From: a virus
Virus record (IMG/VR): IMGVR_UViG_3300037963_002654
Coordinates: 24,391-51,078 of that record
Strand: one strand, 5' to 3'
Length of the DNA: 26,688 bases
In this document: one piece after another, positions 23,721-26,471 of the stretch
Numbering within the stretch: position 1 is the stretch's first letter
Layout: every line of letters begins with the position of its first letter
Position numbers and translations under genes: made by a program
Notes under the pieces: model-generated
Databases searched by the model: none
Seen by the model: only the letters and a program-made list of their open reading frames with translations
Told to the model about the DNA's origin: nothing

Positions 23721-24200
23721 ATGGCAAAACATAAACTTAACTATACTATTATTAGAGAAGCCTTGGGCGAGTATCTAAAAAATAAAGCAGTTATACCTAT
23801 GTATAACAAAAAACAAATCAAAGAAGAGGCTTACAAGCTTGAAGACTTAGAGAATAGTAAGGCGTTTCTTATAGACAATGCACCAAGAAAAAGAATGAGA
23901 GTTGATTTAAACATTACAAAACAAATTTTATTTGAAACTTTAGAAGGATTTTTAAGACAAGAACAAACACCAAAGTATTTTACTAGTGGTGCATCATACT
24001 CAACAGTAAATAATCAAAAATATGAAACAATAGAAACCTATCTTCAATTATATAAAGAAGCAGATTTAAATACTAGAGTAGAAAATATGATTTGGGTTAT
24101 AGAAAACCTTTTAAGTTGTGGAAACTTGAGAGCTAACATAACAAAAGACCAAAAGGAAAGACTTGTAATAGCAACCGAAAACTTACCAAAACATGAGTAG
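23721..24200 (+). CDS. 159-residue helical protein, unknown
   Basis: Lys/Glu-rich and mostly helical: LNYTIIREALGEYLKNKAVI (6-25), KKQIKEEAYKLEDLENSKAF, ITKQILFETLEGFLRQEQTP, and VENMIWVIENLLSCGN near the end. No membrane segment or motif is evident. It follows the 62-residue gene by three bases, and its stop overlaps the start of the amidotransferase frame (ATGAGTAG), so the genes are likely translated together. Its conserved place in the run, if seen in other phages, would suggest a partner or substrate-binding factor of the two enzymes. Confidence 0.55.
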   Translation: MAKHKLNYTIIREALGEYLKNKAVIPMYNKKQIKEEAYKLEDLENSKAFLIDNAPRKRMRVDLNITKQILFETLEGFLRQEQTPKYFTSGASYSTVNNQKYETIETYLQLYKEADLNTRVENMIWVIENLLSCGNLRANITKDQKERLVIATENLPKHE

Positions 24201-25209
24201 GGTTTGGGATGAAGGGGTAAATGGTATACCCTTCGACGCAATAGATGAATACCATGAATTAATTAATAACGAAAAAAATATAAATATGTGTGGATTAGTA
24301 GGCTTTTCAGGTAAAGCAGACACAAGTGTGTTAAAGGCTTTACATTTATTAGCGGACAATGATTCCAGAGGTGGCCACTCTACAGGAATGTTCGCAAACG
24401 GTAAAATATACAAAACATTAGATGAGTCTATGAATATATTACCAATGCTTGAATCAAATGATACAGGCAGTGTTCTTATAGGACACACAAGATATGGTAC
24501 TCATGGTGCTAACACCACTGAGAATGCACATCCATTTCAGCACAAAGGAATTATAGGTGCTCACAATGGTGTGTTAGATAACTATGAAGAGGTAGGTAAA
24601 AAGTATGGTATAGAGAAAACAGCTGTTGATTCAGAAATGATTATTAAAGTACTAGGAGAAAAACGAGATGCTAGTAAATTAGGATTATTTGGTGGAACAA
24701 AAGCTGTGCTATATACTGCTAGTGACAATAAACTTTATGTATACCGACACAATAACCCATTATTCTATTTAAGAAAAGAAGAAGGTGTTTATTTTAGTTC
24801 ACTCAAAGATGGCCTGGAAAATATAGCAGGTAAAAATGAAAAAATAAAAGAGTGTAAAAAAGATAAACTATTTATTTGGGAGAATGGAGAATTATTGCAA
24901 ACAATTAACATTAAACACAAACCTATACCAGCCACTAAAGTTATAAATACAAATTGGCAATCGTATGGTAATCATTTTGCAACACCCTCACACTCAAGCA
25001 TTTATGAACAAGCTAATATATTTGAACAAAATGATTGGGATAATTATGAGGAAGAAGATTATGCTAAAGCAGAACATTTGCAAAAGATAAGCTTAAAACT
25101 ACAAGAACTTGAAGAACATCTTGATATGGATTTAGATTCAAGAACAGCTTTAAGAAGTGCAATAACTGAATTAGATGAAATGGCTAACGAGATTTATTAT
25201 TCATATTAA
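24193..25209 (+). CDS. Class II glutamine amidotransferase (Ntn-hydrolase glutaminase)
   Basis: The core is a GlmS/PurF-type glutaminase domain with the expected motifs: Cys33 in MCGLVGFSG (the N-terminal nucleophile once exposed), RGGHSTG (59-65), GHTRYGTHG (97-105), ENAHPF (110-115), AHNGVLDNYEEV (123-134) with the oxyanion Asn/Gly, and VDSEM (145-149). It would hydrolyse glutamine and pass on ammonia. There is no SIS sugar-isomerase or phosphoribosyl domain. The last 100 residues are a charged tail, so ammonia must go to a separate partner, most simply the amidoligase encoded 11 bases on. Start is uncertain. ATG 24193 overlaps the preceding stop and adds 31 residues ahead of Met32-Cys33, which would need removal as a propeptide. 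ATG 24286 puts Cys directly at position 2 and has an A-rich leader. I give the longer frame because the upstream part reads like protein. Confidence 0.85.
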   Translation: MSRVWDEGVNGIPFDAIDEYHELINNEKNINMCGLVGFSGKADTSVLKALHLLADNDSRGGHSTGMFANGKIYKTLDESMNILPMLESNDTGSVLIGHTRYGTHGANTTENAHPFQHKGIIGAHNGVLDNYEEVGKKYGIEKTAVDSEMIIKVLGEKRDASKLGLFGGTKAVLYTASDNKLYVYRHNNPLFYLRKEEGVYFSSLKDGLENIAGKNEKIKECKKDKLFIWENGELLQTINIKHKPIPATKVINTNWQSYGNHFATPSHSSIYEQANIFEQNDWDNYEEEDYAKAEHLQKISLKLQELEEHLDMDLDSRTALRSAITELDEMANEIYYSY

Positions 25210-25220
25210 AATTTTAGATT

Positions 25221-26471
25221 ATGGGAAAAGAATATGAATTAGAAGAAGGTTATGTCATTGACATGAATGGCGATGAACAACATGAAGATGATTGTGTTCA
25301 GTTACATGATGGACAATGGTGTCATCAAGACGAAGCTAATTATTGTGAATCAGATGGAGAATATTACCATGAAAATGAAGGTAGAATACAATGGTGTGAG
25401 ACAAATGAATGTTATTATCTTGATGAAGAAATGATTTATGGTGAGCTGTATCAAGGTGGCGAAGGCTGGTTTCATCAGGATACTGATTATGAGTATTCAG
25501 AACATTCTGATAGATATTTTCAGTGTCGTGACACAGTAGAAGGCTGCGGATTTATATGGTCTAGCGCTAGAGAAGATTGGGTTCCAGAAGATGAATACAA
25601 TGAGTATGAGTGTTGGGATTGTACTTACACTATGAAAGACACTATGTTTACTGAAACATATGGAATGCCATACACATTTGGCGTAGAAATGGAAACTTGT
25701 AGTGGCTATTTAGAATATACAACTAAATATAATCTTAGGTGTGTAGAAGATGGCAGTATAGACGCACAAGAATATGTAACAGGAGTTCTTCAAGGTAACA
25801 AGGGTATGGATGAGCTAAAAATGATATGCGAAGCTGTTAATAGAGAATGTTATGTTGACAAAACCTGTGGTGTTCATGTGCATATAGGTGGTGCTAGCTT
25901 CAATAGAAGATTTAGTATACTATCTATTATGCTGGGACAAATGATGCAAGAGCAATTATTTAGAATTCAACCTAAATCAAGGAGAAAAAATACTTACTGT
26001 AAAGAAATACCTGAAAAGTACAGGGAATTAAGAACAGTAAATAAAAAACTATTTCCTTATACATATAAAAGAATGTTAAGGTTGCTTTCTCAATACATTG
26101 CTAATTGCTCAGGAGGATTTGATAAAACTAATTGTAAAAAATCATCTAATCCTAACGGACACTATTCATCTACACGATATAAGTGGCTCAATCTAAATAA
26201 CTTTAGTTATAGAGATAGGGGAGACACCATAGAGTTTAGACAACATAGTGGCTCACTTGATTATAATAAAATAAGAAAGTGGGTATTATTTTGTATGAGT
26301 TTTGTTAACTTTGTTGAAAACCATTCAAGAACCATAATAGAAGCATTCAACAGATTCCAAGAAGACCCAGCTATATGTATATCAATGCGTGAAGTGTTGG
26401 TTGCAAGCTTAGGTAAAGAAGGAGATGTTATAGCAGACTATTATGATAAACGTGAAGAAAGATTTAATTAA
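25221..26471 (+). CDS. Amidoligase-type (COOH-NH2 ligase) enzyme with acidic Cys/Trp-rich N-terminal domain
   Basis: 416 residues. Residues about 150-370 match the putative amidoligase family related to glutamine synthetase and gamma-glutamylcysteine synthetase: FGVEMET (153-159, acidic metal ligands), VEDGSI (175-180), CGVHVHIG (216-223, the metal/substrate His pair), RYKWLNLNNF (319-328) and TIEFRQHSGSLD (336-347, with the Arg that binds ATP or acceptor). Such enzymes use ATP to form an amide between a carboxylate and an amine. Residues 1-145 are an extra acidic domain with repeated Cys, Trp and Tyr (see Findings). It is the last gene of the run and follows the glutaminase gene by 11 bases, a pairing known in phages and bacteria. 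The target is unknown: a cell-wall peptide, a virion protein or a small metabolite are all possible. Confidence 0.85.
   Translation: MGKEYELEEGYVIDMNGDEQHEDDCVQLHDGQWCHQDEANYCESDGEYYHENEGRIQWCETNECYYLDEEMIYGELYQGGEGWFHQDTDYEYSEHSDRYFQCRDTVEGCGFIWSSAREDWVPEDEYNEYECWDCTYTMKDTMFTETYGMPYTFGVEMETCSGYLEYTTKYNLRCVEDGSIDAQEYVTGVLQGNKGMDELKMICEAVNRECYVDKTCGVHVHIGGASFNRRFSILSIMLGQMMQEQLFRIQPKSRRKNTYCKEIPEKYRELRTVNKKLFPYTYKRMLRLLSQYIANCSGGFDKTNCKKSSNPNGHYSSTRYKWLNLNNFSYRDRGDTIEFRQHSGSLDYNKIRKWVLFCMSFVNFVENHSRTIIEAFNRFQEDPAICISMREVLVASLGKEGDVIADYYDKREERFN

Follow-up and report, generated by a model that had tools for sequence, protein, structure and literature searches.

Genes at the 3' end of the window

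The window analysed here covers the final 26,688 bases of a virus record of 51,078 bases (24391-51078 of 51078). Since its end is also the end of the contig, the genes further downstream cannot be inferred from the window alone. Among its products, the terminase, the portal and the head proteins fall into phage head-and-packaging families. The host probably belongs to the Bacteroidota, because the sequences closest to the terminase are those of crAss-like phages and of Flavobacterium and Bacteroides phages (28-29% identity).

Two open reading frames lie close to this end on the plus strand, the first listed at 24193-25209 and the second at 25221-26471. A sequence-only reading had described class II glutaminase motifs in the first, amidoligase motifs in the second and 11 bases between them, and all of this was confirmed. 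Indeed, MCGLVGF (24286-24306), HTRYGTHG (24484-24507), HNG (24562-24570) and DSE (24628-24636) can be read directly in the first gene, FGVEMET (25677-25697), CGVHVHIG (25866-25889) and TIEFR (26226-26240) in the second, and the gap spans 25210-25220. With Pfam profiles, the first product matches GATase_6 with 52.4 bits (cut-off 27, E = 7e-14) and the second Amidoligase_2 (PF12224) with 76.8 bits (cut-off 22, E = 3.1e-21). Both family matches are far above chance, and PHROGs places the two ORFs in a glutamine amidotransferase and an amidoligase family, respectively.

The first gene encodes a class II (Ntn) glutamine amidotransferase (GAT). Its Ntn glutaminase domain (24286-24906, plus strand), recognized by a profile match and with GlmS and PurF as solved relatives, contains the Cys, HTRYGTHG, HNG and DSE motifs. 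In an alignment of eight amidotransferases (A2), C33, R100, N125-G126 and D146 are invariant; the profile score above cut-off is accompanied by the nucleophilic Cys, the glutamine-binding Arg and Asp and the oxyanion Asn-Gly. The Cys, Arg and Asn-Gly are kept also in far more distant phage GATs. The window GAT shares the Ntn glutaminase residues of GlmS and PurF but lacks their sugar-isomerase or phosphoribosyl domain, and its synthase partner would be the separate amidoligase.

In class II amidotransferases the catalytic Cys has to be N-terminal. In the ORF that opens at 24193 it is residue 33, behind a conserved extension of 31 residues, and an in-frame ATG at 24286 gives Met-Cys. Because of this requirement, the enzyme probably starts at 24286 (24286-25209, plus strand), removal of the Met exposing the Cys; the same start is suggested by the GATs of the relatives of type A, every one of which has Met directly before Cys.

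The second gene (25221-26471, plus strand) encodes an amidoligase, probably of the glutamine-synthetase/glutamate-cysteine-ligase type. Its predicted catalytic domain (25635-26468, plus strand) carries FGVEMET, DGS, CGVHVHIG and TIEFRQH, and twelve residues (G154, E156, E158, D177, G178, S179, H219, H221, R319, E338, R340 and H342) are invariant in 54 amidoligases. The conserved acidic, HxH and ExR motifs of Amidoligase_2 appear together with a profile score above cut-off. The AlphaFold model (pLDDT 92.7, pTM 0.79) weakly resembles the glutamine-synthetase/glutamate-cysteine-ligase fold: its best PDB matches, YbdK, plant glutamate-cysteine ligase, PafA/Dop and glutamine synthetase, all belong to this superfamily, with a TM of about 0.3 (for the best, E 2e-3 and TM about 0.33). 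The conserved Glu/His/Arg catalytic motifs are common to these enzymes and the window amidoligase, but the latter is too distant for a sequence match in the PDB, where our search returned insignificant matches only, and it has an added N-terminal domain. This domain (25221-25634, plus strand; about 130 residues), recognized from the secondary structure of the model and the lengths of relatives, is built from short beta-hairpin units in tandem, with a high content of Cys, Tyr and Asp. It is absent from two relatives of 308 residues (L062 and L067). Its structural matches include a phage protein that bears the name LIM-domain containing.

Genes and peptide upstream of the amidotransferase

A 159-residue protein is encoded just upstream of the GAT gene (23721-24200, plus strand). 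It has 17 distinct homologues upstream of GAT, all in the closest clade. No function could be assigned to it, because it matches no Pfam or PHROGs family and its structure model is poor (pLDDT 63). The sequence-only reading had asked whether this gene and a neighbouring gene for a 62-residue acidic protein travel with the pair, and had named the acidic product as a candidate target. The first does travel with the pair within the closest clade. For the second, a homologue was detected only in the nearest relative, L016 (a single contig, L091 being the same one), which makes it a poor substrate candidate. In six other loci (L046, L052, L054, L055, L060 and L061), two conserved frames seem to overlap just 5' of GAT, ending in ...QHF..I and RF[FM]Y[KR][NH]R[KQ][LI][NT]; frameshifting or overlapping genes are possible there.

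The first 31 codons of the listed GAT ORF (24193-24285, plus strand) encode a conserved acidic peptide, MSRVWDEGVNGIPFDAIDEYHELINNEKNIN, which is in frame with GAT here and in six sister-group loci. L017, L019, L023 and L028 carry it as an ORF of its own, which is read in another frame and overlaps with the start of GAT. The motif in relatives reads DE..[NG]G[IV]P[FYW][DE]AI[DEN][DE]Y, and the module is portable and 20-30 residues long. The predicted RNA structure of 24172-24310 is no more stable than that of shuffled sequences (z = -0.53). Special conservation of synonymous sites was considered for the codons of 24193-24285, where variation is low (1/18 codon columns), and was rejected, the neighbouring GAT block being equally low.

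A third enzyme in the relatives of the pair

We gathered relatives of the pair from IMG/VR. In all loci whose upstream sequence reaches 3.5 kb or more (57/57), GAT precedes the amidoligase. One gene occurring without the other at random places, which the sequence-only reading had given as grounds for giving up the pair, is thus not seen in this subfamily, although some amidoligases of more distant phages lack a detectable GAT (see below). No natural GAT-amidoligase fusion was found among 157 sequences. A search of bacterial genomes with a narrow pattern gave two weak matches only.

In the relatives, genes on the same strand 3' of the pair encode a DnaB helicase, an HU-like protein, a Sak4-like protein, NinB, RusA and an exonuclease, followed by a member of the gamma-glutamyl cyclotransferase (GGACT/AIG2) family (5.5e-18). 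This GGACT gene lies about 5.5-8 kb downstream of the pair within an early replication/recombination cluster, with about ten replication genes in between in type A. Whole-record searches of nearly complete contigs of 62-71 kb found GGACT in 11/11 relatives. The family is rare enough that this is not background: a match of the same kind occurs in 187/50,697 phage records, many of them from phages known for the cassette discussed below. The YGxL and Glu positions are invariant, which suggests that the GGACT of the relatives is active.

The window's own contig has no GGACT, because the sequence stops 217 bases after the amidoligase. The nearest relative, L016, has one, and from the relatives we infer that the genome of the window phage has one too. 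The description of the system as two enzymes plus two unknown proteins therefore falls short, the third enzyme having been missed as the contig ends. By contrast, the observation that no ATP-grasp gene lies beside the pair extends beyond the window: a profile of the cassette ATP-grasp found no homologue in the same contigs (0/11 relatives, 62-71 kb), and neither did a search for the PF14395 COOH-NH2 ligase (0/11, 62-71 kb), while three five-gene phage controls were positive in both cases.

A reduced form of a known phage cassette

RIO-1-like, phiEco32-like and LUZ24-like phages are known to carry a five-gene cassette made of GAT, two ligases, an ATP-grasp protein and GGACT, for which a role in peptidoglycan modification and superinfection exclusion has been proposed (PMC5498523; PMC10580990). 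A gene list for UFV-P2 is also available (PMC3890496), and several cassette papers cite Iyer et al. 2009 as the primary source. The idea of a peptidoglycan target linked to superinfection is therefore an already published hypothesis and not a new one. In the literature searched, we found no biochemical test of any cassette member.

The window's clade has GAT, Amidoligase_2 and GGACT near replication genes, as have, GGACT usually included, the five-gene phages (RIO-1, PSA-HP1, phiEco32, LUZ24/tf/UFV-P2 and, among Crassvirales, phi14:2 and cr108_1), but unlike them it shows homologues of neither the cassette ATP-grasp nor the PF14395 ligase. In addition, GGACT is adjacent in the five-gene cassette, whereas it stands 5.5-8 kb away in the window's clade. 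In a tree of 91 amidoligases, a single branch (100/100) splits the loci that carry an ATP-grasp or PF14395 gene (29 rows) from those of the reduced form (40), which include the window. This tree is unrooted and does not distinguish gain from loss. With GAT next to Amidoligase_2 in the window, and with GGACT/AIG2 present and the ATP-grasp and PF14395 members absent in the 11 relatives, the best reading is that the window system is a reduced variant of the known phage cassette for which peptidoglycan modification has long been proposed.

Two observations concern the GATs of the five-gene type. Those of L132 (phi14:2), L136, L139, L141, L144, L145, L147, L134, L089, L137, L082 and L068 begin with a hydrophobic, membrane-helix-like segment, and their catalytic Cys is not directly preceded by Met, so that these proteins must undergo processing or be anchored in the membrane. 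Many five-gene loci (L065:10948-11652, L068:10117-10770, L077, L079, L083 and L086) have, directly 3' of the amidoligase, a second Ntn amidotransferase-like gene of smaller size (MCIIIAKK...).

The same three families are found together outside these groups. In the Arthrobacter phage Salgado, GGACT (gene 97), amidoligase (gene 98) and GAT (gene 99) adjoin one another, gene 97 (L159:3327-3779), annotated as hypothetical, being recognized as GGACT with 2.1e-18. The families are those of the window's form, but the genes are adjacent and in another order, the sequences are distant and the host is actinobacterial. Natural fusions of an Ntn GAT with GGACT exist in phage C75C1 and in the phage of MW202828. 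An amidoligase lies about 0.9 kb upstream of the fusion in C75C1; in MW202828, profile comparison identified the gene directly upstream (L192:2218-3942, UOF82541), annotated as hypothetical, as a divergent amidoligase (hhalign E = 7e-5). On the other side, GGACT was not detected in the cassette phages cr108_1 and G014, the Bacillus phage 031MP002 combines an amidoligase with GGACT but has no detectable GAT, and in Porphyromonas, Christensenellales and Faecalibacterium phages the amidoligase stands alone, no GAT being detected. These counter-examples make the trio, as far as gene content indicates, a usual core and not an obligatory set, none of its pairs being obligatory.

Proposed function of the three enzymes

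We consider it rather probable that the pair is the part visible in the window of a three-enzyme phage module, composed of GAT, Amidoligase_2 and GGACT, which would work as follows. GAT would release ammonia from glutamine. The amidoligase would use ATP to activate a carboxylate as acyl phosphate, in the manner of its glutamine-synthetase and glutamate-cysteine-ligase relatives, and would join it to the ammonia freed by GAT or to another amine. GGACT would then resolve a gamma-glutamyl amide formed on this route through cyclisation to 5-oxoproline. The activities of the enzymes, the hand-over of ammonia and the order of the steps are all inferred.

For the target, our leading guess, a tentative one, is a gamma-glutamyl compound of the envelope or peptidoglycan. 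The module may accordingly act on stem peptides or on the precursors of these, by amidation or by the addition of gamma-glutamyl groups, and so exclude other phages, the reduced trio performing one linkage; we hold this to be possible, though short of an even chance. It is what has been proposed for the RIO-1-like, phiEco32 and LUZ24-like cassettes (PMC5498523; PMC10580990), but the published support comes entirely from annotation. The membrane-helix-like segment preceding the catalytic Cys in about a dozen GATs of five-gene relatives also favours it, since ammonia would then be released at the membrane; however, no GAT of the window's clade has such an N-terminus, and no transport, flippase or wall gene was recognized nearby.

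The place of the genes in a replication/recombination cluster could instead reflect a target in replication itself, namely a nucleotide, a DNA base or a replication protein. Both forms are embedded among genes for DnaB, primase, Sak4, RusA, exonuclease, uracil-DNA glycosylase and thymidylate synthase. An early-gene position fits any host-takeover function as well, however, and no base-hypermodification gene was recognized among the neighbours examined; we regard such a target as unlikely.

Slightly less likely again, in our view, is that the module supports the nitrogen or glutathione-type metabolism of the host as an auxiliary metabolic function. The fact that cycles of the glutathione type include GGACT and gamma-glutamyl ligases speaks for this possibility, but the window's clade lacks the cassette ATP-grasp, which would be the glutathione-synthase step. 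A planctomycete phage whose genes include those for GAT, amidoligase, GGACT and a glutathione-synthase-like protein has been reported to promote growth, an effect claimed as an aid to nitrogen use, but the whole phage was tested and not the genes (PMC10945688).

The acidic peptide of 24193-24285 has a wider distribution than the enzymes. It is present in four contigs with no detectable amidoligase or GAT, in one of them fused to a spore-photoproduct-lyase-like (SPL-like) radical-SAM protein (L169:3001-4008) and otherwise as a free small ORF (for example L167:3001-3171 and L171:2992-3156), and no copy of it turned up next to the more distantly related pairs of type A. Further matches in L187, L189 and L190, inside long proteins beside tail genes, were taken as chance similarity. 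Because it occurs in contigs without the two enzymes, the peptide is, from its distribution, not specific to amidation. It is very improbable, though conceivable, that it is a portable phage module serving to tag or control early enzymes of unrelated kinds, a glutaminase here and an SPL-like protein elsewhere, which in turn modify it chemically or use it as a leader. Still harder to credit is that it is a genetically encoded substrate of the amidoligase: its acidic residues are conserved, it lies directly 5' of GAT and in some relatives it is a separate ORF, but its presence in contigs without the enzymes and its absence beside the distant type A pairs speak against this.

The three-enzyme module is the preferred reading. 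The cassette has been annotated for over a decade; the reduced clade narrows it down to a core of three enzymes, gamma-glutamyl chemistry included. Indeed, because GGACT is constantly present, it suggests that a gamma-glutamyl amide is made and then resolved, rather than that a carboxyl group is simply amidated. With three of the five enzymes kept, and two of these three fused elsewhere, a minimal set exists, which could be assayed in one tube or in one strain.
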